Source: Isoetes taiwanensis
Taxonomy: Eukaryota; Streptophyta; Lycopodiopsida; Isoetales; Isoetaceae
Direction: 5' to 3'
Length of the DNA: 64,000 nucleotides
Assembly: GCA_021234155.1 (NCBI GenBank)
Contig: JAJEKV010000011.1
Span: forward strand, 19,486,677-19,550,676
This document shows positions 4,334-32,278 of this stretch, piece by piece. The notes under the pieces are model-generated. The model searched no databases. It had not been told where the DNA came from and saw nothing but the letters and a program-made list of their open reading frames with translations. Position numbers and translations under genes: made by a program. Numbering within the stretch: the first letter of the stretch is position 1; each line of letters begins with the position of its first letter.

Positions 4334-5512
4334 TTGCTCTAGTTTTGTAGTGCACTTAAATACTTCAATACATTGACACAACTTTGCTCATTGTACATTT
4401 GAATAATTTATAAGATCTTTGAAGATGGATCCACATGTACCAATAACCATCATTTTGGTTTTAATATTGTTTCCAATCATTTAAGTGTTAGCATATAATT
4501 TTAGGGAATTCGAAATGCTTGCTATGGCTTCGTTTATTCTAGCAATTAGAAAACAGTAAAGCAATTACGATTACATATGCCATCAAAGGCACATTCCTTT
4601 GGAATCCACCAATTCTCTAGCTTGCAAATGAGAATACTAATTAGTTTAGTTGAAGGGTTTCTTGATAACGTGTTCTCCTTTGATCCCAATGGGTTGTTGC
4701 CTGGGAAAGGAAGCGGTGGAGAGGCTTTCTCATCTTAAATATACATAAAGACGTAAAAGGGATTCTGCAGCGGTGAGAGGGACCCCACGGCTGACAGTAG
4801 TTGCAGAATCCTCGACCAATTTTGCATCCCCAACAACATGGAAGTTGGGGAGCCCGTGCATGCAGAGGAGTTTCTTGACTGGTTGTCCACGTATTGCTGA
4901 ATTTATCAACTTAGTTTCCATTCTGCTGCATATAGACTGGACATATGGCTGCATCAAGATAATCCTCTGGCAAAAGAGGCAGCCCAACTTCCATGTTGTA
5001 TACGTGTAGGATCTCTGGAGCTTAACTTGTAGATGAGACAAACCAAACAAATCTTGTGATGGTGATGATATGATCATCAAGAACTACATACACATTTGTC
5101 CATGTGTTTCATGGGTCAACATCTAGCCATTTTTTTATTTCTACATGATGCATGACTAATTGCCATCTGTTTCACAATCTCACACAAATAGTAATGTATT
5201 TGTCTATGTTTCTTGTGAGTTAAGCCTCACAATAGCTCGAAGACCAATGCATAAGATGATGATAGAACAAGAGCATTATGCAATCGTCATGATGAATCAC
5301 AACACTAGAGTAAAAGGCAAGCAAGGCCCCAACCAACGAAAAGATTAGGTAGGAATGGCTAGATGGTACAAGTTAGGTTGCTGCTTGACCAAATTTTCGC
5401 AAGCAATTAGTGGTTAGGATTGAAGTTAGCCTTTGTCTTGGGATCTAAGTTTAGAGGGTGGAAGGTTGGGTAGGACCTGGGAGAAATCGCACTTCATGAA
5501 GCAGTGATCTAA
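4334..5512. other. Intergenic DNA with an extended imperfect inverted repeat
   Basis: No gene is recognised. Between 4,832 and 4,998 two arms share the 17-base core ACAACATGGAAGTTGGG in inverted orientation. Similarity continues imperfectly inwards towards the loop (AGAGGAGTTTCTTGA versus AGAGGATTATCTTGA), giving arms of roughly 60-75 bases. Short open frames over it are probably by-products. Confidence 0.5.
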
Positions 5513-5580
5513 TGATAAGATAAGATAAGATAAGATAAAAATTTTAATATCCACGAAGACTTGGGTCATGGAACGATACA
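5513..5580 (-). mobile_element. Short 3'-end fragment of a LINE family with a (ATCTT)n tail
   Basis: On the minus strand the sequence reads CCATGACCC, a GTGGATATTAAAA motif, then a pentanucleotide tail (GATAA repeats on the plus strand, 5,513-5,540). This matches the 3' ends at 12,066-12,110 and 20,505-20,565, which read GGTCCCAT, CTCCGTGGAC, TTAAAA or ATAAAA, then a short tandem tail. It is only about 65 bp, so the assignment rests on motif order. Confidence 0.45.
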
Positions 5581-8318
<2,738 letters not shown>

Positions 8319-9810
8319 TACTTTCAAGACATTGTCCGCAGCAAAGCTGGAAAGGAGTGTACAAGTTGTATTCGATGTCATGGCTCAAAATTATATGTGA
8401 CAGGTCATTCTTTTAAGATCCATTTTCGAGTCTTGAGTCTTATGGTGGTTTCGCAAGCTTGGACAGTAGCTGTAATGTGGTTGTCAATCTTTGACAATTT
8501 AAGAACAAACAAAGTGTGACAGAAAATTAACGTGAGTGGCCGATGATCTATGTGTTAAAGGAAGTTTTTAGTTTCTTTTATGGAGATCATAGCTGCTATT
8601 ATAAGTGGTGGCAAGAAAAAGTATTTGATTTGAACTTTTGCTGCACGATCAGCTAATGTATATTTTCTCTCTTTAGAGTATTTATGTGGAATTAAGGTGG
8701 GTAGTTTTACTTTTAACGTCCTGCCTGGGGAACGATTTTCTTGTTTGATGCACTGGCCAGATTGCTTTGGAGAAGTGCGTCAATATTTAATGTCATAAAC
8801 TGCATTGTATGTGCAATTGTGACCTTGCAATGACATTATATGCACTGGTTTTTCTGACTTTTGGGCAGGTCTCTGATTTATTGTTATCGGTAACCGTTGG
8901 AAATGTTTATTTTGCACGACTAAACGTGGCACATGCATAATATAATTAATAAATATTACATTTTAAGTGGATATTCTTCATCTCCCAAGATCTCTATCCC
9001 CAGGACTATTGCCCACCCACTGTTCAAAGGATTTTTTTGGTTGATGATGTCACCATGACTACGCTGTATATGTCTAGTCTAAACAATAGCTTTTAGGGTT
9101 GACAAGAATATCTATTTGGGAGTTGACAAGAATATATGTTAGAAGACTTTAAGCATATTCAAAACTTAGAAAATGAAGGAAATGGTGGGCATGTCAAGTG
9201 TTGTGCTTTCCTTTAGAAAAGGATTGAAGCCTTGTGAAGAAAGCCAAAATCCAAGGCAACTCTAAACCCAGGAACTTTTCCATGTCGTGCGGGGAAGGTA
9301 TGGGGAAGGTAAGTGTACTATAAGCTTCAAGTGTAGCTCAAAAGCTTAGCTTCATCTATTTGTTTGTCTATCTATCAGGCTGTCAATCAATCAATCATCA
9401 TGCATGTATCATGCACGTCTTGTTTTCCTTTCAAACTTGGCATCATGCTATCTGCATATTTCCACACTACCAGGATGTTTCATGAAAGATGCTAGAGTCT
9501 TTCACGGGGTGCAAATAACCCACATTACAATCGCCAAATTCCTATAGAGATAATTCCTGACTGTTCACTTGGTCTATCTCATATGCTTAACAACCCAAAT
9601 ACTCTTAATTACATATGTAATTCTTGAACTCCATGGAATGCATAATTATGTGGAAACATCTATCTCATATGCTTAACAACTCTTAATTACATATGTAATT
9701 CTTGAACTCCATGGAATGCATACTCCTATTATGTGGAAACAACTTCTCCATGCTGTCTATTTATTGGGTGATCGCCTTGTAAGGATGCTTTAGAGATTTA
9801 ATACTACAAA
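8319..9810. other. ROP 3' flank and intergenic DNA with a short tandem duplication
   Basis: The 3' untranslated region of ROP begins here; no strong poly(A) signal was fixed. A stretch starting CTATCTCATATGCTTAACAAC is present twice (about 9,572-9,660 and 9,661-9,740) with small indels. No gene is recognised. Confidence 0.5.
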
Positions 9811-13662: not shown

Positions 13663-16204
13663 GAGAAATGGATGTACAGTTTAAATGTTGCATTTACCAA
13701 TTAACTAAGCAATGTATGGCAAGTAAAGAGGCATCATACATTGCTAAGAAGTCCTAAATATCCCGTGCATTTTATACATGACACTTACAATTTAGTAAAG
13801 AAATGGAGTCAATTTCCAAATTGACAAACATGAAATGTCCATGTGCTTTTTGGACACACTGTATTATGTCCTTGCAAGTACGAGCATCATGCAAGTTATT
13901 AAACATTGAAGGATAAGCAGTAGCTTTCAATTCAAATCAATCCAATTCTATAAACAATTTAGAGTCGCAAGAAAACTCTAATACACATTACTTTATCACA
14001 AAATGAAAAACCTGCTTTTCAAAATTCAAACATACAAATAAGAAACCTGCTTTTCTATTCTATTCTTTTAACTTACAATAAGAAATTTAAAATATAAATG
14101 TGGAAGTTTTTAAAAACGGATACCATAATATACTTTTTTAGAAGAAAAAGATAACTAAGTTATTTGAGATGTTTTTTCTAGATTAAATGGTCATATATAT
14201 ATTTTGTTCTCGTGGCATAGAAATTGCTAAGTAATAAGCATGCAAAAACCACGAATACATGTAAAACTAAAAAGTTTACATCCAAAAGACCAATTATAAC
14301 CACATCGTTTCATACACTAAATTGAAGGTTAGGAATCAAGTTTCTAACAATTTATATCTTTTTGGCATTTACTATGCACTTTGTTGAGATATGTCAAGCA
14401 TATCCTCACCACCCCAAGAATGTCAAGTAACAAAGCACTTTACGTTTTACACAAGTTCTTTCATTATACTGCTACCGAAATCTTGTTCAATCTTAGACTC
14501 TGTTTAGGGCATGTCCAAAGAAGTCTAAGTTGCTAGAGCCAACTACGCTACTGAAATGGAGTAGTTACTTAAAGACAAATTCTACTTTGAAATTGGACCC
14601 ATTAAGTCAAGCTTAGCCAACCTTCAGAAGCCGTGCAAAACCCAATAAAAACCCTTCTCATGCATGCCGGTTGTACGGCTTGTACGTTCATCAATTTCCT
14701 TCTTATCCTTCTTATTCCTCTCATTAATATTAATGAAAATAGCTAGATGTGTGTGTTAACCTTCAGGCCTGCTCTACGCTTTCTATGTGTATATGCCATA
14801 GGTCCAATAAGTAGACAAGATAAGTAAAAACTTACATTCTAGTGCAAACTGCATAAATTATATCGAATTGAATAAATTTTAACATGTGAAGGACTCTAGT
14901 CTTAGGACTAGCATGCGAGCTTTGGCGAGTTGCTTAGCACAATGTAGAGATATGTGACCATAATGCAGGGCTAGCTTCTCTTTGAATCATGAACGCCTAG
15001 CCGACTTCTTAGGCTCTGCAACCATATCATCCTGATAGATTAATATGTCGTATCTTCTTCAGAGATCTCTTAGAACCTAAGGACCTCAACTCTATATCTT
15101 AAACCCTAACCCTAATATGTTAAGTTAGATGTATGTGATTAGGATAGGTCGGTTATGAGTTATTTTCAAGTTATAGATCTTGTGTATATGTTTTGCACCC
15201 TTCTGCTTGGGTGAGGGGAATAGAGGCCTAAAAACTACTCCGTGTCTAAGACCTTTTAATCCCCAATTGATTCGCTATATATATAAAAACCCATATGACT
15301 GAGCGTGGCAGGCAGTTGCTAGAATGAATAAAGGAGGCCGTGACAGCTACGGTTGGAGCCTGATGTGTTCTAGCTACTGGGGCTCTGTAGCGGACTAGAC
15401 CTGATTGTCTACCACCATTTGTAGGTAGAGTATGGGTCTGGCATCTCCTAGATGATGCATTGTCCTAGTGGGATTAAGTCGGGTACAGAGGTGAGCGCCA
15501 TGTGTATATATGTATATTTGTACAGCTGCCAGCAGGTTTGTTGCTGCGACGGTTTTTCTTGGAAAGCTTATCGAACGAGCTTTCCGTCGGTGTATGACTT
15601 GTATGGTGTTTTGTCTGTTTTAGCCGCCGGAATCCACCTGACAGTCCCGGCCCTCTATGGCCACCTCTGACAGCATGCATGCGTTGAAGAAAAGAGCCCG
15701 CAATTTGGACACCTCGTCCCCATCGAAAGCGGTATCTCAGTTGAGGCAATCGTGGTTGTACAGAACAGGCCGATTCCCTCCGGCTAAGGCGGCAAGCTTG
15801 AGGCATCACGAGACCATCTGCCGGAGGTCGCTGCGCTCGAAGCGGCTTCTCCAATGAAAGGAGCGAATTTCCCTTGTGGAAGTTCGGCTTGGGGATTATG
15901 ATTGCGGGGGAGCCCAAAAGGTCGAGGACCGATAAGAGGGGAGATACAAGCAACAACGCAGCTTCGTCACGGAGATGGGGCACCGCTTGGATAAGGTCCA
16001 CCAAAGGTGGATGGAAGACATGGCGCAAGCAACGGGGCTGACATGAAGGGGTTGCTCCAGCCAGATTGTACAAGTCACAAGCATGGCTGGTCGGATAGAT
16101 GCTAAGGAAAAGGATGTGGAAGCCCGGTGCGGGCAGGCTCAATTCCTTGATGAAGCAAAGGCGCATAGAGATGATGTCGAAGATGCTCACATATAGAGAA
16201 CCAT

Positions 16205-16945
16205 ATGGCCCACTTACAGCAAGAGATGCAGGACCTCCGAATGGAGGTGCAACGAGTCCGGAGTGCACCACAGTCGTCTGCACCAGCACCCCCCATACCA
16301 GAGGCCGAGGTGGCTCAGGGAATCAGGCGGGTACTTCGTGAGGAGCAAGACATCCAGGCACGCCGCCTCAACCTTATTGTGCGGGGATTGCCGGAGGAGC
16401 AAGGCGAGGATTTGCCAGGTAAGCTTACCACCCTGGTACTTGCAAAGCTCCAATTACAGTATTTGGTTATCAAGAGTCCAATCAGGGTCGGAGGACCGAG
16501 CATGAGACCTCGGCTAGTTAAGTTTGCAGTCTTGGATTGGGAGGCAAAATCTTTGTTGTTGCAACGCACCAGTCGCTTGAAAGGTACGTCCATATACCTG
16601 GATGTGGATCTCACGCCACTGCAACAACGGGAAAGAAGCCAAGAGTTGGTCAAGATAAGAGAGATTCGACAAGCTGGAGGGGCTGCTGGTTTGGTTAATG
16701 GCAAGATGAAGGTATATGTGCCTCCTCGTCAGACAGTTGCGGAGGCAGCACTCCCACGAACAGCTGCGTCGCAGGGGCAGAGCGGTCCAGGGGCATCAGG
16801 CCAGGCAGGCCAGGGAGAGGGCGGATTGAGGCCTTCCACAACTGCAGCACATCCATCAGGGTCCCGTGAGCAGGCTGCCCGAGTTATTCCAACTACAGCA
16901 GCGTCCTCAGGCACTCAGATGGATCCACAGCCGCAGTCAGCATAG
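16205..16945 (+). CDS. LINE ORF1 protein (RNA-binding), possibly 5' incomplete
   Basis: An open frame of 246 codons. The N-terminus is a heptad-rich helix (HLQQEMQDLRMEVQRV) typical of the ORF1 coiled coil. It is followed by an RRM-like core (RRLNLIVRGLPEE, then SLLLQRTSRLKGTSIYLDVD, then LTPLQQRERSQELVKIR) as in L1-type ORF1 proteins, and a Gln/Pro/Ala/Gly-rich tail. In LINEs this protein packages the element RNA. A further N-terminal part lies upstream in a shifted frame from the ATG at 15,657 (MATSDSMHALKKRARNLD), so the native ORF1 was longer and is broken here by frameshifts between about 15,780 and 16,200. The stop is at 16,943-16,945, directly before ORF2. Confidence 0.75.
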   Translation: MAHLQQEMQDLRMEVQRVRSAPQSSAPAPPIPEAEVAQGIRRVLREEQDIQARRLNLIVRGLPEEQGEDLPGKLTTLVLAKLQLQYLVIKSPIRVGGPSMRPRLVKFAVLDWEAKSLLLQRTSRLKGTSIYLDVDLTPLQQRERSQELVKIREIRQAGGAAGLVNGKMKVYVPPRQTVAEAALPRTAASQGQSGPGASGQAGQGEGGLRPSTTAAHPSGSREQAARVIPTTAASSGTQMDPQPQSA

Positions 16946-16949
16946 GGAA

Positions 16950-19900
16950 AGTGTCTTCGTATTGTTTCCTGGAATTGTAGGGGCTTCCCGTGGCAGAAGG
17001 GCAGTGGCTTGAATGGGATCGCGACAGACATGGACATCGTCTTCCTGCAGGAGACATGGGAGTATGAAGGGCATCGATTGCCAGACATTCGAGGATATCA
17101 GCATTTCTCACTTGCTAATGAGCGCCATGGCGTGCGAAGCGGCACGGTGGAGTGGCTTGCTACTTTAGGGATGCCTTAGCATGCAAGATCACACTTCAGA
17201 AGTCTGATGTGTTTAACCGCTACATGTGGGTAATGGTATTAGAGCCTGGTCATGTCCCATTGTTTCTTGCTAGCTGCTACATTCCCCATGCAGGCTCTAA
17301 GTTCTACCAGGTACATGATGCAGACACGGATGTCCAGATGCCGTATAGGGAACTGTATGATGACATAGACCGCTATAATCAGCAGGGACAAGTGTTTTTG
17401 CTTGGAGATTTCAATGCTCGTACGTCGCAGTTGCAGTCGGTGACCTTCCAAGGTGACGATAATGCTGATCCGCTTTGGCTTGAGACAGCCGCTATTCAGA
17501 ATACACGGCACTCCCAGGATATGGTGGCTAGACCATTTGGCAGGCAGCTGGTCCAGCTCTGCCAGGTTTTTGACATGGTAATTTGTAATGGTATGCAGCG
17601 ATGGCCACACTCAGGGGGTGTTACTTGCAGGAGTGATAGGCAGGATGGGGGAGCTAGTGTGTTGGATTACCTTCTCGCTCTGTAGCAGCACTTGACATGG
17701 TTACACACCTCTCCATTGGCACAAGCACAGGGGATGAGGAGGCTTTGTCAGATCACTACCCGCTTTATGTCACGCTGAATTGGGAGCACTCAATAGCGGA
17801 GACACTGCAAAGGGGGCGTGGAGGGTTACCATACATCCCACGCTATCGGGCGGGGCAAAGATGAATCTGTGTTGGTGCAGAATTACTGGGGTTTGATAGC
17901 TTCTACACACCGCAAGGCAGTGTGCATGGCTGGTGAGGGCGCCGCTGTTTCGCCGAGGCTTCCTTTGCAGTGAAGGGCCCTCCAAGGAGGGACACCGCGC
18001 ATTTTCCTGAGAACCCGTGGTTTGATGCTGATTGCAAGGCTCTAAAGAGCCAGCTGCGCTTGGTCATAGATCCACAGTTGCGGCCACAGGCCCTGCAAGA
18101 CTATAAGCTCTTCCTAAAAGCCAAGAAGGGGAGATACATGGCAGAAACCCAGGAGCGCCTGTTTGACATGCTCATGGCAGAGCCAAAAGCTTTTTGGCGT
18201 AAGGTGTTATATAAGAAGCGCCAGGTGGCTGGTAATGTAAGTGTGGAGCAATGGATGCACCGCTTGCAGGAGTTATATGACCCGCCAGGAGCTAATGCCA
18301 GGGTCCCGGATCAGGTAGGAGAGGTGCTGCAGCTCACGCGGGAGGATGTTCAGCAAGGTCTCAGGCATCTGGCGAATGGCAAGGCAAAGGATTTACAGGG
18401 GCTGCAGGCCGAGCTGTTGAAATGGGGTGGCCCATCTGTGGTAGGGCCCCTGACGGTGATCATTAACCAGGCTCTGAGCGAGGGGCTCCCCCAGGAGTGG
18501 ATGGTTAGTAAGGTTGTTCCTGTTCATAAAGCTGGTAATACGGATGAGCCGGCGAATTACCGGATGATTATGGTAAGCTCGCTGTTTGCAAAGCTCCTGG
18601 CAGGGGTGGTGGAGAAGAAACTTACTAAGTGGGCCGAGGAGGCAGGGGTGCGGGCAATTGGCCGGCAAAGGCTTTTAAGCCCGGCTCACTCCACGGCACC
18701 ATATCTTCACTTTGAGAGTGTTGATGGAGGCAAGCCGAATGAGCCGAGGACTTGTATTGCCGCTTTGTAGATTTTAAGATCGCATATGATACCGTCCCCG
18801 AGACATACTTGGGCGAGAGGTTGCAAGAATTGCGAAGTTCCACAGAGTTGCGTAATGTGGTGCACCAGCTTTTATGATGGGATTTATGCCGCTTTGCGCC
18901 TTATGAGGATCGGCGGGTAGCTAGCACTATGGGAGTTAAGCAGGGCTGCCCGTTGTCTCCAACGCTTTTTGGGTTGTATATTGATAGCTTGGAGACGTGG
19001 ATGCAGCACCATGGGGGAGCCGGGGTGCAATTATCTGATGCGACCTCTGTGAGCCAGTTACTATATGCGGATGATGTAGCTTTGCTAGCTCACACGGCCA
19101 GCAAGTTATGCAAAGAAGATTTGGATGCCCTCGGGGGTTCCCGTGGGGCAACGGAATGACGAACTTGCACAAAACTAAGCTTCTCGCGATCCTGTCCTCG
19201 CAACACCCTATCCCGAGTTCTATTACGGGGGCGAAGTGGAGATGGTGCGGAGCTTCAAGTATCACGGGAATTGATTTCACTACTAACATGCCGTGGGATG
19301 AGTGTGTGGAGAGAAGAGCCGCAAGTGGGAAGGCTTTATATGCAAAAAAAAAACGCGTGTTGCCGGGATAGGTCTCTCGTGGATCGGGCGAGGAGAGCAC
19401 ACCTGCTTAGAGCTTTGGTTGAGCCGGTGCTGTTATATATGGGGTGGAGGTTTGGGGCCCAGCCAGCTTAGCAAAAATACGTGGGATAGGTTGGAAAGGG
19501 TGCGAAAGCTTTCTTGACCTATAGCTTGGGAGTGAAGGACACCGCATCGCATCGATTTTGTTGTATGAGACGGGGTTCGCCTTTACAAAGATTCTCGCTA
19601 TCGCGAAGGCATCTTACTTGCTTCCATAAGGTGGATGGGATGGATGAGCATCGCTTGCCCCCACAGCCGTGTTGTTAACGCAGGGGGGCCCCCGGGTGAA
19701 GAGGGTATGGCACGAAAGCAATCGTAGGGATGGTTTAGGAGGTGGTCTATGGATTACCAAATGGATGGTGGCACCGCGCATTCTCGATGCGAGAATGGGC
19801 AATTGATGCGGGCTATGCTGCCACTCGGGGGATGCCTCTACTCTTGCAAAGCCCAAGACAGAGCACTATCACGCCGAGATTAATCCCAGCCTTGAGCATG

Positions 19901-27543: not shown

Positions 27544-28672
27544 TTGCAAAGAGAATAAAATATGATTTTATCGTCCACGGAGACCAACTGGCCTATGGGA
27601 CCCAAGTACAAAGAGAGAGCAAAGAGTATTACTACCGTGATTAAAAACCCCCCAGAAGGGTTTTCGGGGAAAACCTTAGTAGCAATAAGGATGCCGACAT
27701 ACCTTTACACGCTTATATACATAATCACAAGTACAAATTGAGGTTAATGCCTGACGGGGGGCATAACCGAAGTCGCCAGATCCATTACCTCCCTCCCCGA
27801 GGTACGATCCCAACAAGCCTCCACAGAGGCCGTGGCTCAAGAGCTCATGCAAGGCCCGATGGGGCACAACTAACCGAGCATACCGAGCCCGGATATGCTC
27901 GACACGGACAGCCCCGAGGGGCATGACTTTCATCCTCAATGGCTCGCTGACAAAGATCGGCGGACTCTGGCCTCACGCTGCTCCCGAATCCATCTCCCCG
28001 CCTCAATGCGGAGGTGGTGTGCACTGTCGGGAATGGAAGCAATCACCTGCGCTTTTTCATGGGTAGGTGGGTGCGCAGTAGTGGTGTGGGCCCCCTTGTG
28101 AGCATGGGATTAACTCGCCGTCGATAATTTGCCACCTTGACATGTGATGGGCCTCTGATCCCAAAGCTTGGCCATGAAGCAAGCATCCAAGTACCGCTTC
28201 AAGGCAGCGCTTCCTTCTGTATGCACCGGTCCACATCTGTGTGCCTGCACATTCCATAGCGAGAACCACTGGGCTTGCTTGTCTTTCCAAAGAGGCTTTG
28301 AGTCATCTGCGGGGCCCATCGCCACCGCCAAAGCAAGGTTGGGCAGCCGGCTTCATCCATAGCCACCACCTTCCTGAAGTAAATAATGTGACGTTCCAAA
28401 TAGCAGCCCTCTGTAATGGAAGGAAGCCTGTCTCCTGGAGCAAGATCTGATATGGGACCGTGGATTTCACTCCCAGTGCCCGGGCCAAGAAGGCCTTCTG
28501 TACCTGCTCTAGATCGTTCCAAGTGGTGAGGGATATCACTGGCCCCCACACTTCTGCCCCATAGAGGAGGACCGGTTCAACCAAGGCCCTGAACAAGTGT
28601 GCCTGGTGACCCCATGCATACAGCTCTGGGGCTCTTGTGAAGAAGATTACTTGGGAGGATGACATTGTCAAG
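27544..28672 (-). mobile_element. 5'-truncated LINE, minus strand
   Basis: The minus-strand translation near 28,610-28,520 gives HLFRALVEPVLLYGAEVWG, the reverse-transcriptase C-terminal motif also seen (damaged) in the LINE at 19,400-19,450. The 3' end, read on the minus strand, has GGGTTTTTAATCACGGTAG, then GGGTCCCATAGGCCAG, TCTCCGTGGACGATAAAA and an A/T-rich tail ending near 27,544. The 5' end stops abruptly near 28,672. It belongs to the same family as the plus-strand LINE. Confidence 0.75.
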
Positions 28673-28989
28673 TCTTAGTCTCTATTGGGTATAACGGTCT
28701 CTTACCTGAATCAACATCCTGCCTTAAAAACATATCACTCTTTGTATTGGATAACAGAGGTGGAAAAGGACACATAAGGATGAACCACAAAGACTATAGC
28801 AACTGCTTTACTTCTGGTATAAAGCAGAGTTTCATTAAATTTGGAATATACAAGCCAAGTTGGAATAATTTCCATATAATATACCTCTGAGAGCTATGTA
28901 TACCTCTATACTTATAATAGGGTTATGTGTATTACAATATGTATATCTGTTATACTAACATAACCAGATTACAACAAGATTACAAGTAC

Positions 28990-29712
28990 TATTCTAAATC
29001 ATTGTCAACAAAAGCTCCAGAGTTTCGATCATGAGATGCTCTTGATTCCATATAAGGTGGATGATAACATCGAGGGGATTAGGATAATGGCAGGCAGGAT
29101 TGATAGCAACAGTGGTCAGCCAGTCTTCAAGTGCTATACCTCACTGGCGGCACTGCCAGAGGTCCTCATAGTTCATCTTGCAAGTAATGGAATCATGTTC
29201 AAGACCAGAATGTGCCATATCTAGACGGAGGCCAATGTTGATGGACTCCGCAATTTGATGCATAGTTATACCCACCAAAATTATTGATGGTATATACATA
29301 GAAATTATTGGACGTGATATGATAGATCATATATATACTGTGTACATAATACTCGTATATACCCAATAATGTTGCTACAACGCACATCAATAATTTTATG
29401 GGTATAAGTGCAGTGGCATTCTGTGGCGTAAGGCATTCATTTGCTATGTCTCGACTTCCTGTTAGAGTTCTTGAGAGGTCGCAATTGCCTCCTCCAGCTG
29501 AACATCTCGACTCCATTACTTGCTCTATGAGCTTCAAAGATTTGTATGCATGCAAGCAAAAAGGTATCATCCTTGATCCCTGGCTGGATAGCAGAGGGTC
29601 GAGAGAGAGATTTCCCCGATGAGTACCATGTGGTTATCCATCTTGTTTGGGTTCCAAAGCGCGACACTTATGAGGTTGATAATGTCACCAATGCCTATAA
29701 TCTATGAATCAT
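28990..29712 (+). pseudogene. Unidentified coding relic interrupted by a small inverted-repeat element
   Basis: The plus strand reads sensibly from about 29,025 (FDHEMLLIPYKVDDNIEGIR) to 29,223. After the insertion at 29,268-29,407 it resumes (PPPAEHLDSITCSMSFKDLY, then KGIILDPWLDSRGSRERFP) and, after a one-base shift, ends in DEYHVVIHLVWVPKRDTYEV and a stop near 29,707. I do not recognise the protein. Its position next to the methyltransferase-like relic suggests an origin in the same mobile element, but this is inference. Confidence 0.35.
29268..29407. mobile_element. Small MITE-like insertion, 140 bp
   Basis: The left end TTATACCCACCAAAATTATT and the reverse complement of the right end (TTATACCCATAAAATTATT) form terminal inverted repeats of about 22 bp. 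The element separates two halves of a coding relic. No target-site duplication was confirmed. Confidence 0.55.
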
Positions 29713-29715
29713 GTA

Positions 29716-29805
29716 TGCTATAAGAGTATTATGCACTTATTAAAGCGTGCTATAAGAGTAATATGCACTTATTAAAATGTGCTATACAAGTATTATGGAC
29801 ATTTT
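29716..29805. repeat. Three diverged tandem units of about 38-40 bp
   Basis: The unit GTGCTATAAGAGTATTATGC followed by ACTTATTAAAG occurs three times with substitutions. Confidence 0.6.
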
Positions 29806-29849
29806 AAAGATATAAGCATTTGTACGTGATGTAAAATATAGTAGTAGTA

Positions 29850-30360
29850 TACAAGATCTCATGTATTAAGATGAAGAATGTGCTATGTCCTTCCACATAT
29901 CTACAATATATTTTGGAATTTGCACAGTTTTTGGCCTCTTGTCATTGGCATCCCAAACATAATGAATGGCATCTAATTTTCCATACCGTGAAGGATCGGT
30001 AGGATTAGGCCATCAATGCTTAGTTAAGCAGTCTGTATAGTCCCCTCTAGTAGGCTTCCACCAGGATACATAAATATGGCCAAAATTTGTAGATTCTGGA
30101 TCAAGAACAACATTCTCCTCTGCATATCCTAACCAAGTGGCAGTGTTGTCATCTCCAGGTTTGACTAGAACAAGCATACCTTTAAAACATGTACGTGAAG
30201 ATCAAACTCTTCAAGAGACATCACTGGACGCCCATCTGAAGGGCCACAATAAGAAGGTAACGGTCGCGTGACCAAGGCAGATACATCGATCTCTGGAAAA
30301 GGGCAGTTATGAAGTGACGAGTACAAGGTATGTTCACGTCTATCTAACCATATTATATTT
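29850..30360 (-). pseudogene. Unidentified coding relic, minus strand
   Basis: Read on the minus strand, RREHTLYSSLHNCPFPEIDV is followed by SALVTRPLPSYCGPSDGRPV and MSLEEFDLHVHVLK. After a frame change near 30,180 it continues as GMLVLVKPGDDNTATWLGYA, EENVVLDPESTNFGHIYVSW and YGKLDAIHYVWDANDKRPKT, ending with DMWKDIAHSS near 29,870. Codon-level sense over about 170 residues argues for a former gene, but no family is recognised. The Trp-rich part is reminiscent of C-terminal modules in some transposon-encoded proteins. It lies head-to-head with the methyltransferase-like frame across the hairpin at 30,361-30,419. Confidence 0.35.
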
Positions 30361-30419
30361 GTAAATGACGCAGCTGTGCCATTTACACACAAATGGCGCC
30401 GCTGCGCCATTTCATTTAC
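30361..30419. repeat. Hairpin at the left of the methyltransferase-like relic
   Basis: GTAAATGACGCAGCTGTGCC on the left pairs with the right arm ending in GCCATTTCATTTAC; only a five-base bulge and two mismatches interrupt about 24 pairs. A related hairpin lies at 32,054-32,110. Confidence 0.7.
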
Positions 30420-30467
30420 CATCTTCCGCTTCTAGCATCGTGACTTTTCTTGCAACACTACCTTCAA

Positions 30468-31749
30468 ATGGCCAAGAGGATTCTGAAGGGCAAATACATG
30501 AAAGACGTCAATAGGTTCGTCTTCATGCCAGATGAAATATATGCCCTTCTTCCGTGAAATGTGGAACAAATGGAGGAAGGGTAAGCTGAAGGACAATAGA
30601 GGTCAAGCTATAGTAATCAATTGGGCCAAGGACAAAGATTACTTTAGCGACAACTATCTCAGATGCATGAGGGGCCTTGACTACGAAGATTGTCGAAAGG
30701 TCCTCAATTTGAGTGGGGATATCTACTTCAAAGTCATCTCAGATTACAAAGGTGAGAAAGCATAGAACTTGAGGATCCTTGCTTACATGAAGAAGGAGAT
30801 ACTGCACTTCATCTCATATCAAATCGGCATTAAGTACACAAAATTCGAAGACTTAAGGAAGGAAACCGACGACTTTTCTGATTCTGTAGTTTTGGTTTGG
30901 GGAGTATGTCACCATAAGTGGGTGTCGGAAGGAATACTAATACATGGTAACATGCCCTTCTCTTTGGGCAGAACAATTTGAAAGATCCTTAAGCCCAAAA
31001 CAGAAAAGGACTTGCCAAAATTTTTTGTGGAGCATGTTACAATCGGGGGGATTCTACCAAACATTACAGCTTTGCCTGCCAACATGATTTATTTAGATGT
31101 GAGGCAGATTACTCCGGTTTGGAATAACGAGACCATAACCAAGTTCTTTGATTTTTCATTACAGATGACAGATGTAGAGACATACTGGATTCTTTGTTTT
31201 GTCAGACCGGAGCATAACAGTCTGTTCGCCAGTGCTCTTGAAAGACTAGAATCTAGGTCTAAAGTGTTCGTAGAAATCTATGAAGAGGAAGCTAGAGCTT
31301 TATGTGGTACTGGAATAAAAGAACCACAGGCTCTCGTTCTTGCCACGAGGATTTCTGCACACTTGGGATATCCTGATGAAGACTTGGACCTCAGATTATA
31401 TGGTGATCATCCTCGTAAGATCCCACCAGTTCCTACTATTCCTAAGGAGGCCATTGGAAGTGAGGGAGACAATATGGCTAAAAAGCTTCTGCAAGACAGG
31501 TTTAAATACAGTTGGTAGGGTATGGAAGGAGAATATCTGGTGCATAAACAGATTGGTCCTGCAATTGCGTCCTACCTCGTTGATAAGCTCTGCCCTCCCG
31601 GTAACATCGTTCTAGATTTCTTCTCTTCTGGAGCCTTTTCTAGGGCATCACTTCATGTAGGCAGAATCAGTGTGGCGTACGAGCATGACTTCAGAAAGCT
31701 TAAATGTATAGCGGGCATTCAGGGTAGGGTCCAGAACGTCCTATCCTAG
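30468..31749 (+). pseudogene. Beta-class amino-methyltransferase-like relic
   Basis: From ATG 30,468 (MAKRILKGKYMKDVNRFVFM) a frame of 28 codons leads, after a one-base shift near 30,540, into a long frame. That frame runs to 31,749 and is interrupted by just three in-frame stops (TAG 30,763, TGA 30,979, TAG 31,516). The C-terminal part has NIVLDFFSSGAFSRASLHVG (about 31,603-31,662) followed by RISVAYEHDFRKL. This resembles motif I (the SAM-binding D-x-F-x-G-x-G type loop) and the following acidic motif II of DNA N6-adenine/N4-cytosine methyltransferases. Upstream, MIYLDVRQITPVWNNETITK and YWILCFVRP would occupy the motif IV region; a clean DPPY is absent. Motif I at the C-terminal side is the order of beta-class enzymes. 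Intronless and decayed, it is probably mobile-element cargo. RNA methyltransferase or a non-catalytic paralogue are alternatives. Confidence 0.5.
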
Positions 31750-32278
31750 CGACCATTAGCGAATGCCAATTTTTTCCTCTGAAAGATGGTGGACCTGACA
31801 CCTCATTAGCCAGGGAAGAAAATGAGACTAACGAATCAAGTTCTCATAAAGAGATAGGTGAAACATCGGCCAAGGTGGTAACTTAGGAGCTGATCATGAA
31901 GAACAAACATTTGACCACAGTAAAATTAACCCAGCAGACTATGAAAAAGTTGATGATGAACATCGATGCCTATTAAAAGGCATTGTATCTACCTTGTATA
32001 TTTATATATGACTAAATGGTCCTTTGTGTAAATGATGTTATCTTTAAGAAAGTAGCGTAGCTGCACTATTTGCTGGGTCTTTACGTGAAAGCAAATAGTG
32101 CGTCTACGCTAATTGCTCTATGGTTATATTAAAGCAAATCGGGCAGCCGCACCATTTGCGTAGCCTACCTGGTGCTTCTTTGCATTTTAATATCTTCTAT
32201 TTCATTTTTCGCGCTGGATTTCTATGTTTTTCCTTATAGTTTCTTAATAAATGGCGCCATACTTTTCTTCTAAGCAAG
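31750..32278. repeat. Right flank of the methyltransferase-like relic with hairpins
   Basis: AGCGTAGCTGCACTATTTGC (32,054-32,073) pairs with 32,091-32,110 at 18 of 20 positions, and a third related arm lies at 32,133-32,160. Against the left hairpin arm (CGCAGCTGTGCCATTT), the differences are transitions only. The rest of the stretch has no recognised gene. Confidence 0.6.

Follow-up and report, generated by a model that had tools for sequence, protein, structure and literature searches.

The segment 30361-32166 of the window, by which we mean the whole 64,000-nucleotide stretch of Isoetes taiwanensis DNA that was analysed, is the 3' part of an internally deleted and decayed copy of a multi-copy DNA transposon with terminal inverted repeats. 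We lean modestly towards reading it as the 3' half of a decayed transposon whose fused ParB-like and methyltransferase-like protein would recognise its own element through palindromes, likely with an anti-silencing effect.

Searching the 1.66-Gb assembly with the 1806 bases of this segment, we found at least 71 matches at E <= 0.001, the best 40 of 414 candidates being scored. For end mapping, 20 loci were taken with 1.5-kb flanks; homology continued beyond both hairpins that flank the frame, and 13 of the 20 shared an identical sharp right end. The reverse complement of this right end matched exactly at 28822-28846 of the window, giving a terminal inverted repeat of 23 nt and a left end of the window copy at 28822, 1.5 kb to the left of the left hairpin. 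With up to two mismatches, the 23-mer occurred at 357 + 319 = 676 genomic sites, as against none for the reversed control. Ten facing end pairs of the family of the window copy (family 1) were chosen among 100 listed terminal-repeat sites, and nine of them had a perfect 4-bp target duplication; the tenth, at C1080, had none and was rejected as a true end pair. C1055, of which one end (L046) was retrieved, and the pair C457 stand outside the end-pair tests. Complete copies of family 1 are about 11 kb long (n = 2 read).

Terminal inverted repeats together with 4-bp duplications make the element a TIR DNA transposon, and by the inverted repeats and the fixed-length duplication, in family 1 and in the sister family described below (family 2), it has the end structure of a cut-and-paste DNA transposon. 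The same two features ruled out a LINE-like element with 5' truncation, which had been suspected because the right end is constant and the left ends vary, as well as a Helitron with hairpin ends. The preliminary description had taken the segment for the relic of a mobile element, which is borne out by its repetition in the genome, its terminal inverted repeats and its 4-bp target duplications. It had also taken the two hairpins for the element ends, and here the other copies, the kind of evidence to which it had itself pointed, gave a different answer: they run past both hairpins to the 23-nt terminal repeats, so that a hairpin-ended cassette was rejected.

The window copy is heavily damaged (Table 1). 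Taken in order, four of its segments can be aligned with residues 19-426 of a 449-residue frame that is open elsewhere in the family. What had been described as a single long frame is broken by three in-frame stops between 30502 and 31749, and the start of the methylase-like exon (30456 on) lies in a different frame, indicating a frameshift upstream of the stops. The SAM-loop-like LDFFSSGAF (31612-31638) and the following VAYEHD (31672-31689), also noticed before, are both present in one common reading frame. The splice acceptor reads AA in place of AG. Compared with the copy C191, about 6.1 kb is missing, comprising the N-terminal part of the transposase, the intergenic region and most of the ParB-like part. 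Homology ends short of the right end seen in the other copies, and the right terminal repeat was absent from the window at up to three mismatches. Transitions outnumbered transversions in all six comparisons made with the window copy; a CpG-loss signature of decay was rejected, CG-to-TG/CA changes being about equally frequent in both directions. An Rfam scan of the window at gathering thresholds gave no match.

Table 1. Features of the window copy and the evidence on which each is placed
Feature	Position	Strand	Evidence
Left terminal inverted repeat AAGCAGAGTTTCATTAAATTTGGAA, the true left terminus	28822-28846	+	Exact match; 0 expected in 100 shuffles
Transposase gene, reduced to its C-terminal part	29869-30297	-	tblastn with the L047 C-terminal frame: 72% identity over 143 aa, E 1e-65
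Internal deletion junction with 6-bp overlap	30293-30298	.	29637-30298 = E22 8290-8887; 30293-32159 = E22 15039-16935
ParB-like exon, last codons (..SDEYK) to splice donor ACAAG/GTATGT	30293-30327	+	Alignment with other copies
Predicted intron from the ParB-like exon to the methylase-like exon	30328-30455	+	Splice-site comparison of 22 sequences
Left hairpin of the preliminary description: two intronic 22-bp palindromes, 30363-30384 and 30391-30412	30363-30412	.	
Methyltransferase-like exon, frameshifted close to the start and interrupted by three in-frame stops	30456-31749	+	
LDVRQ, at the putative place of DPPY in the methyltransferase-like exon	31093-31107	+	Motif IV equivalence from order
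Right hairpin of the preliminary description: degenerate hairpin 32052-32114 (approximate) and palindrome 32136-32157	32052-32157	.	
Final stretch alignable to other copies; homology ends at about 32271	32158-32271	+	

The fuller copies revealed the gene plan of family 1. On the left, on the minus strand, lies a transposase-like gene, open over 667 residues in one copy, which matched DUF7869 (1.9e-40) and gave weak helix-turn-helix matches; HTH_29 was matched at 1.9e-6 by a transposase fragment from another copy. DUF7869 is classed by Pfam as a domain of unknown function, and no paper on it was found in the literature. On the right, on the plus strand and thus opposite to the transposase, lies a gene made up of a ParB-like part, which has the motif NGNHS, and a methylase-like part. 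In a comparison of 22 sequences, the splice donor ACAAG/GT was kept in 16 of 18 sites (a spurious pattern match in L003 was dropped, and three sequences had no match) and the acceptor TTGCAG/C in 13 of 15, and the predicted intron joins the two parts in phase 0. Since the splice sites are conserved and the join is in phase, one fused ParB-like and methylase-like protein is the most likely product. Long open frames persist in several copies, and many others are broken, the window copy included. The dN/dS ratio was 0.18-0.56 in 21 pairs among seven close copies, taken from a set of nine copies and 36 pairs that were picked for long frames; where a pair included L047 or L061 (15 pairs), dS exceeded 2 in two cases and was undefined in the other 13. 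The gene of this family thus appears to be under purifying selection, with a possible bias from the choice of long frames.

To the beta-class amino-methyltransferases, the frame is probably a remote relative, with its SAM motif near the C-terminal end. The HMM search of N6/N4 methyltransferase families that had been proposed as a check gave a weak match of the window segment to PF01555 (E 0.019), below the curated cut-off. The copy L011 matched the phrog_3008 DNA methyltransferase at 0.021, and the top PDB match of the profile was the beta-class adenine-N6 methyltransferase RsrI (1eg2; E 0.037), over the SAM motif region. An hhalign comparison of the SAM motif region with the SAM exon of the sister family gave P 0.0018 (probability 15%), and that of the LD-x-R region with the sister's DLPYG exon was not significant (P 0.18, probability 0.3%). 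No methylase match was found in Pfam for the methylase frames L021, L023 and L061, nor in NCBIfam for L011 and L061, and none of 50,697 phage records matched L011. By blastp, families 1 and 2 showed no significant match to each other in either the ParB-like or the methylase part. The convergence of weak signals and the shared position make the methylase kinship probable. The methyltransferase claim of the preliminary description therefore stands as a probable remote beta-class kinship, drawn from PF01555 and RsrI, and falls short of the curated cut-off.

Kinship of the ParB-like part with ParB is likely, judging from several weak matches. Between the ParB-like parts of family 1 and the sister family, hhalign gave P 7e-5 (probability 63%). 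Among three sister-family segments, one weakly matched TIGR03764 ParB (0.0072), and the same segment matched the ParB-like phrog_723 (0.019), second to a family of unknown function at 0.01; DUF6551 was matched at 0.016 by one of the three sister-family ParB-like segments. Pfam ParB_N had no match in the genome and none in the ParB-like proteins scanned. AlphaFold models were of poor quality, with a mean pLDDT of 37.6 for the methylase-like frame and 43.5 for the ParB-like part, so that both folds stay putative, and a fold search with the latter model gave no usable match.

We then compared the catalytic and SAM motifs among copies. After a predicted strand, family 1 reads LDARQ, LDTRQ or LHARQ, the window copy having LDVRQ, and in most rows xTP[VI]W comes next (15 covering rows of A1), and a third family has LDTRG or PDTRG at the corresponding place. 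From order only, we infer that the LD-x-R place is the equivalent of motif IV. In the 17 covering rows of families 1 and 3, DPPY, SPPY or DLPY never occurred, D-x-R was present in 16, and no motif IV of the (D/N/S)PP(Y/F/W) type was found at this putative site. The SAM loop of family 1 is FSxGA[FL], mostly FSxGAF, with YSDGAF in L015, and that of family 3 is FS[VC]GSF (FSVGSF or FSCGSF); an F-x-G-x-G-type SAM motif near the C-terminus was not found in families 1 and 3, and family 2 has FSGSG. The preliminary description had suggested looking for copies with an intact DPPY-type motif: these exist in the sister family only, with none among the copies read of the family of the window copy. With LD[A/T/V]R for DPPY, the protein of family 1 is probably non-catalytic.

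The sister family came to light in a genome search with PF01555, which gave at least 150 matches above the cut-off, the best 150 of 1444 candidates being scored; the preliminary description had called such a cargo rare in plants, and here it is not rare. Six family-2 loci were cut (L051-L056), five of which cover the motif site, and D[LI]PYG was present in all five distinct copies covering it. The SAM exon of this family reads VLDAFSGSGTT, with NFFGSGTT in L052. The SAM exon of L057, which is one copy with L053, matched PF01555 (5.7e-19), phrog_67 (1.5e-19) and CcrM in NCBIfam (1.5e-11), as well as 131 of the 50,697 phage records at 1e-5. By these sequences, the sister family has the canonical N6/N4-methylase motifs, DLPYG and FSGSGTT. 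L058, which is one copy with L056, has a minus-strand DUF7869 gene (1.4e-24) that matched the family-1 transposase by blastp at 2e-12, and its plan is like that of family 1: transposase, ParB-like part (LGGNHSFKA) and methylase exons. Its ends are AACAAG..TTGC..ATTAAACGGGAG, with the target duplication AAGC. The family-2 end pattern occurred at 848 + 836 genomic sites and at none in the control, and a perfect 4-bp duplication was found in eight of nine end pairs, in addition to L058; in the pair at C668, three of the four bases agreed. Seven of the nine pairs were only about 2.8-4.3 kb apart, and from this short spacing non-autonomous copies are common. Adjoining one family-2 methylase copy is a PPR-repeat frame (PPR_2 1e-19; L051:135-761, minus strand). 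The third family has transposase relatives in L059 and L060, a ParB-like part in all three loci and a methylase-like part in L059 and L061. In the ParB-methylase gene, families 1 and 3 share 26-52% protein identity, and a counterpart occupies the equivalent position in family 2.

The hairpins reported at both sides of the frame are real, and the window copies fold as strong hairpins. The match of their arms at 13 of 20 positions with transitions only exists as well (inverted, with 13 matches, seven transitions and no transversions), but it is at chance level: when 297 pairs of regions were drawn at random from the window, the best 20-mer identity was 11-15 in 296 of them. At their best, the two hairpin regions match at 16 of 20 positions, a value that one of the 297 random pairs reached. 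These hairpins belong, in partly degenerate form, to a 22-bp palindrome, AAATGGCGC-N4-GCGCCATTT, with conserved 9-bp arms and a variable 4-bp centre. Allowing two mismatches, AAATGGCGC-N4-GCGCCATTT occurred at 6256 genomic sites, compared with five for the reversed control. At up to four mismatches the window has only three palindrome sites, all within the element; the degenerate right hairpin (about 32052-32114) was not matched by the pattern at this setting, and where the window has its right hairpin, palindromes of this family can be recognised in other copies. Fuller copies carry about a dozen palindromes each. Nine long stretches held 108 palindromes, 105 of which lay outside the coding blocks recognised by tblastn, with queries that covered the transposase gene in part and with L058 counted for the family-2 type of palindrome; the remaining three lay past the splice donor, in match blocks of a query that itself extends beyond the donor. 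In a blind test, three clusters (C26, C17 and C28) were chosen by the palindrome alone, and all three proved to be elements of the third family.

Family 2 has a palindrome of its own, AAGTGTATTCCGGAATACACTT, in 42-bp arrays, with 5772 genomic sites and none in the control. It was found in six of the eight family-2 loci read (L051 and L052 are without it), and it was absent from five family-1 stretches and from the window. The family-1 palindrome, in turn, was absent from six family-2 loci and from the rest of the window. In L058, palindromes lie in the interval between the transposase and the ParB-like part and between the predicted ParB-like and methylase exons, in an intron that differs from that of family 1. 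Within the stretches read, the palindromes are thus family-specific, which suggests an element-encoded system of self-recognition, perhaps of anti-silencing.

On the model towards which we lean, the fused protein would act on its own element through the family-specific palindrome arrays in the intergenic region and introns, its ParB-like part serving as a DNA clamp loaded at the palindromes or as a binder of them. The DLPYG/FSGSGTT protein of the sister family would, in addition, mark the element with N6-methyladenine or N4-methylcytosine. In family 1, with LD-x-R for DPPY, catalysis has probably been lost and the protein would act by binding. The bound protein would mark its own copies and most likely counter host silencing, as VANC does for VANDAL elements. 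The model draws on the proposal made in the available text of a report on the alga Ectocarpus (PMC12477816) and on the VANC system as outlined in an excerpt of its description (PMC10398659). Binding of the protein to the palindromes, methylation in family 2, its lack in family 1 and the purpose of self-recognition and relief of silencing are all parts of this proposal. A more specific version, offered tentatively, is that the ParB-methylase became a catalytically dead, NTP-driven clamp at parS-like palindromes, which might recognise its own copies and protect their open state from host methylation; two stages of an arms race might then be seen in the sister families, one with an active and one with a dead methylase and each with its own palindrome.

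Several other explanations bear on the same evidence. The palindromes could be binding sites of the transposase, like subterminal repeats, and unrelated to the ParB-methylase protein; a helix-turn-helix region is present in the transposase, which should likewise read the sites of its own family. In CACTA elements, the transposase sites are subterminal. The palindrome arrays in the stretches read occupy intergenic DNA, the predicted intron and sequence 3' of the gene and do not adjoin the terminal repeats, which argues against such a role and makes it rather unlikely in our judgement. Alternatively, the palindromes might work as DNA or RNA structures, such as cruciforms, hairpin small RNAs, or replication or recombination sites. 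The strong folding of the window palindromes fits this explanation, but conserved 9-bp arms around a variable 4-bp centre would resemble the sites of dimeric proteins more, and we think it distinctly improbable.

The remaining alternatives concern the gene. That the protein is a DNA methyltransferase active on N6-adenine or N4-cytosine, its catalytic motif being unusual, would agree with the weak matches to N6_N4_Mtase and RsrI, with the canonical motifs kept in the sister family and with the purifying selection. Against it stand the complete lack of DPPY, SPPY and DLPY in the 17 rows of families 1 and 3, where D-x-R prevails (16 of 17), and SAM loops that read mostly FSxGAF in family 1 and FSVGSF or FSCGSF in family 3 instead of FSGSGTT; activity of this kind is improbable. 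That the gene is captured cargo, passive and functionless for the element, would account for the many broken copies, that of the window among them. Its retention in families 1 and 3, diverged to 26-52% protein identity, with a counterpart in the corresponding place of family 2, its dN/dS well below 1 (in copies picked for long frames) and its several long open frames leave this explanation very improbable. A fused protein that recognises its own element through the palindromes is the reading that we retain.

VANDALs are Mutator-like elements. For the VANC anti-silencing proteins of Arabidopsis VANDAL transposons, the available text reports binding and loss of silent marks, with rapidly diverging repeats in non-coding DNA as target regions (PMC10398659). 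Family-specific repeats in non-coding regions, as in VANDAL and VANC, are present here too, and the families described here resemble these elements in having their own non-coding repeats and a proposed self-specific action; the binding and the loss of silent marks are reports on the VANC proteins.

Sola1 elements have a 4-bp target site duplication, as does the element studied here. For Sola2, a duplication of 4 bp is documented in the text available (PMC3627910). In the brown alga Ectocarpus, the transposon Sola1-1_Ec32 is described as having an accessory gene, on the strand opposite to the transposase, for a protein with ParB-like and N4/N6 DNA methyltransferase parts, and transposons of green and red algae are cited beside it for ParB-methylase accessory genes; the authors propose that the protein binds and modifies its own transposon (PMC12477816, as far as the excerpt goes). 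The element studied here is likewise a DNA transposon with a ParB-like and methylase-like gene on the strand opposite to the transposase, a comparison with Sola1 that rests on the 4-bp duplication and the gene layout, the transposase here being known by its DUF7869 match. It differs in that three families and at least 150 methylase matches occur in one 1.66-Gb genome, in that DPPY is replaced in families 1 and 3, and in its family-specific palindrome arrays, of which the excerpt has no mention for algal transposons (PMC12477816). In phages and bacteria, a ParB-CTPase fold is fused to an N6_N4 methyltransferase, according to the available part of the source (PMC12704722). The present gene shares with these fusions the combination of a ParB-like part with an N6/N4-type methylase part; unlike them, it is eukaryotic, contains an intron and is borne by a TIR transposon, and its ParB motifs are too weak for Pfam ParB_N. 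The likeness to RsrI over the SAM motif region is set against the lack of the catalytic DPPY motif in family 1.

What is already known, as far as the excerpts of these sources go, is thus the occurrence of ParB-methylase accessory genes in algal transposons (PMC12477816) and of ParB-N6_N4 fusions in phages (PMC12704722). Among titles and abstract openings in the literature, the Ectocarpus paper (PMC12477816) was the only one found to describe ParB-methylase genes of transposons; no such gene was reported there for land plants, nor a family with an altered catalytic motif, nor palindromes tied to ParB-methylase genes. In its available text, the algal work supposes that the protein binds and marks its own element, with the candidate site left unnamed (PMC12477816). 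The present genome supplies candidates: its two palindromes together have about 12,000 sites, and in the stretches read each palindrome goes with one of two related groups of elements, one group with canonical and the other with altered methylase motifs. Whether transposons carry their own epigenetic self-recognition system becomes directly testable by binding assays and by native long-read detection of base modifications.

Other features were noted around the element and in its copies. Near the left end, at 28964-29622 on the plus strand, two short open stretches have 75-78% protein identity to L026 and less elsewhere, and may be a further short gene belonging to the element and running convergently to the transposase; one of them matches itself in reverse. 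The part 27600-28628 of the window belongs to a very abundant repeat that ends about 190 bases before the left end of the transposon; a query that contains it gave 8843 first-look candidates, and the matches scored were mostly 87-95% identical. Another very abundant repeat (88-98% identical) abuts family-1 sequence inside the C191 copy (L024, E22 4346-7547), and its frames resemble, by eye, a different transposase. Farther off, the GC-rich part 15474-18770 has one frame that weakly matches Exo_endo_phos (0.00094), two neighbouring frames giving no match, and is perhaps a non-LTR retrotransposon. At 14-1270, on the minus strand, lies an open frame of 419 residues, in which a zinc ribbon accompanies a DnaJ domain (1.3e-16).
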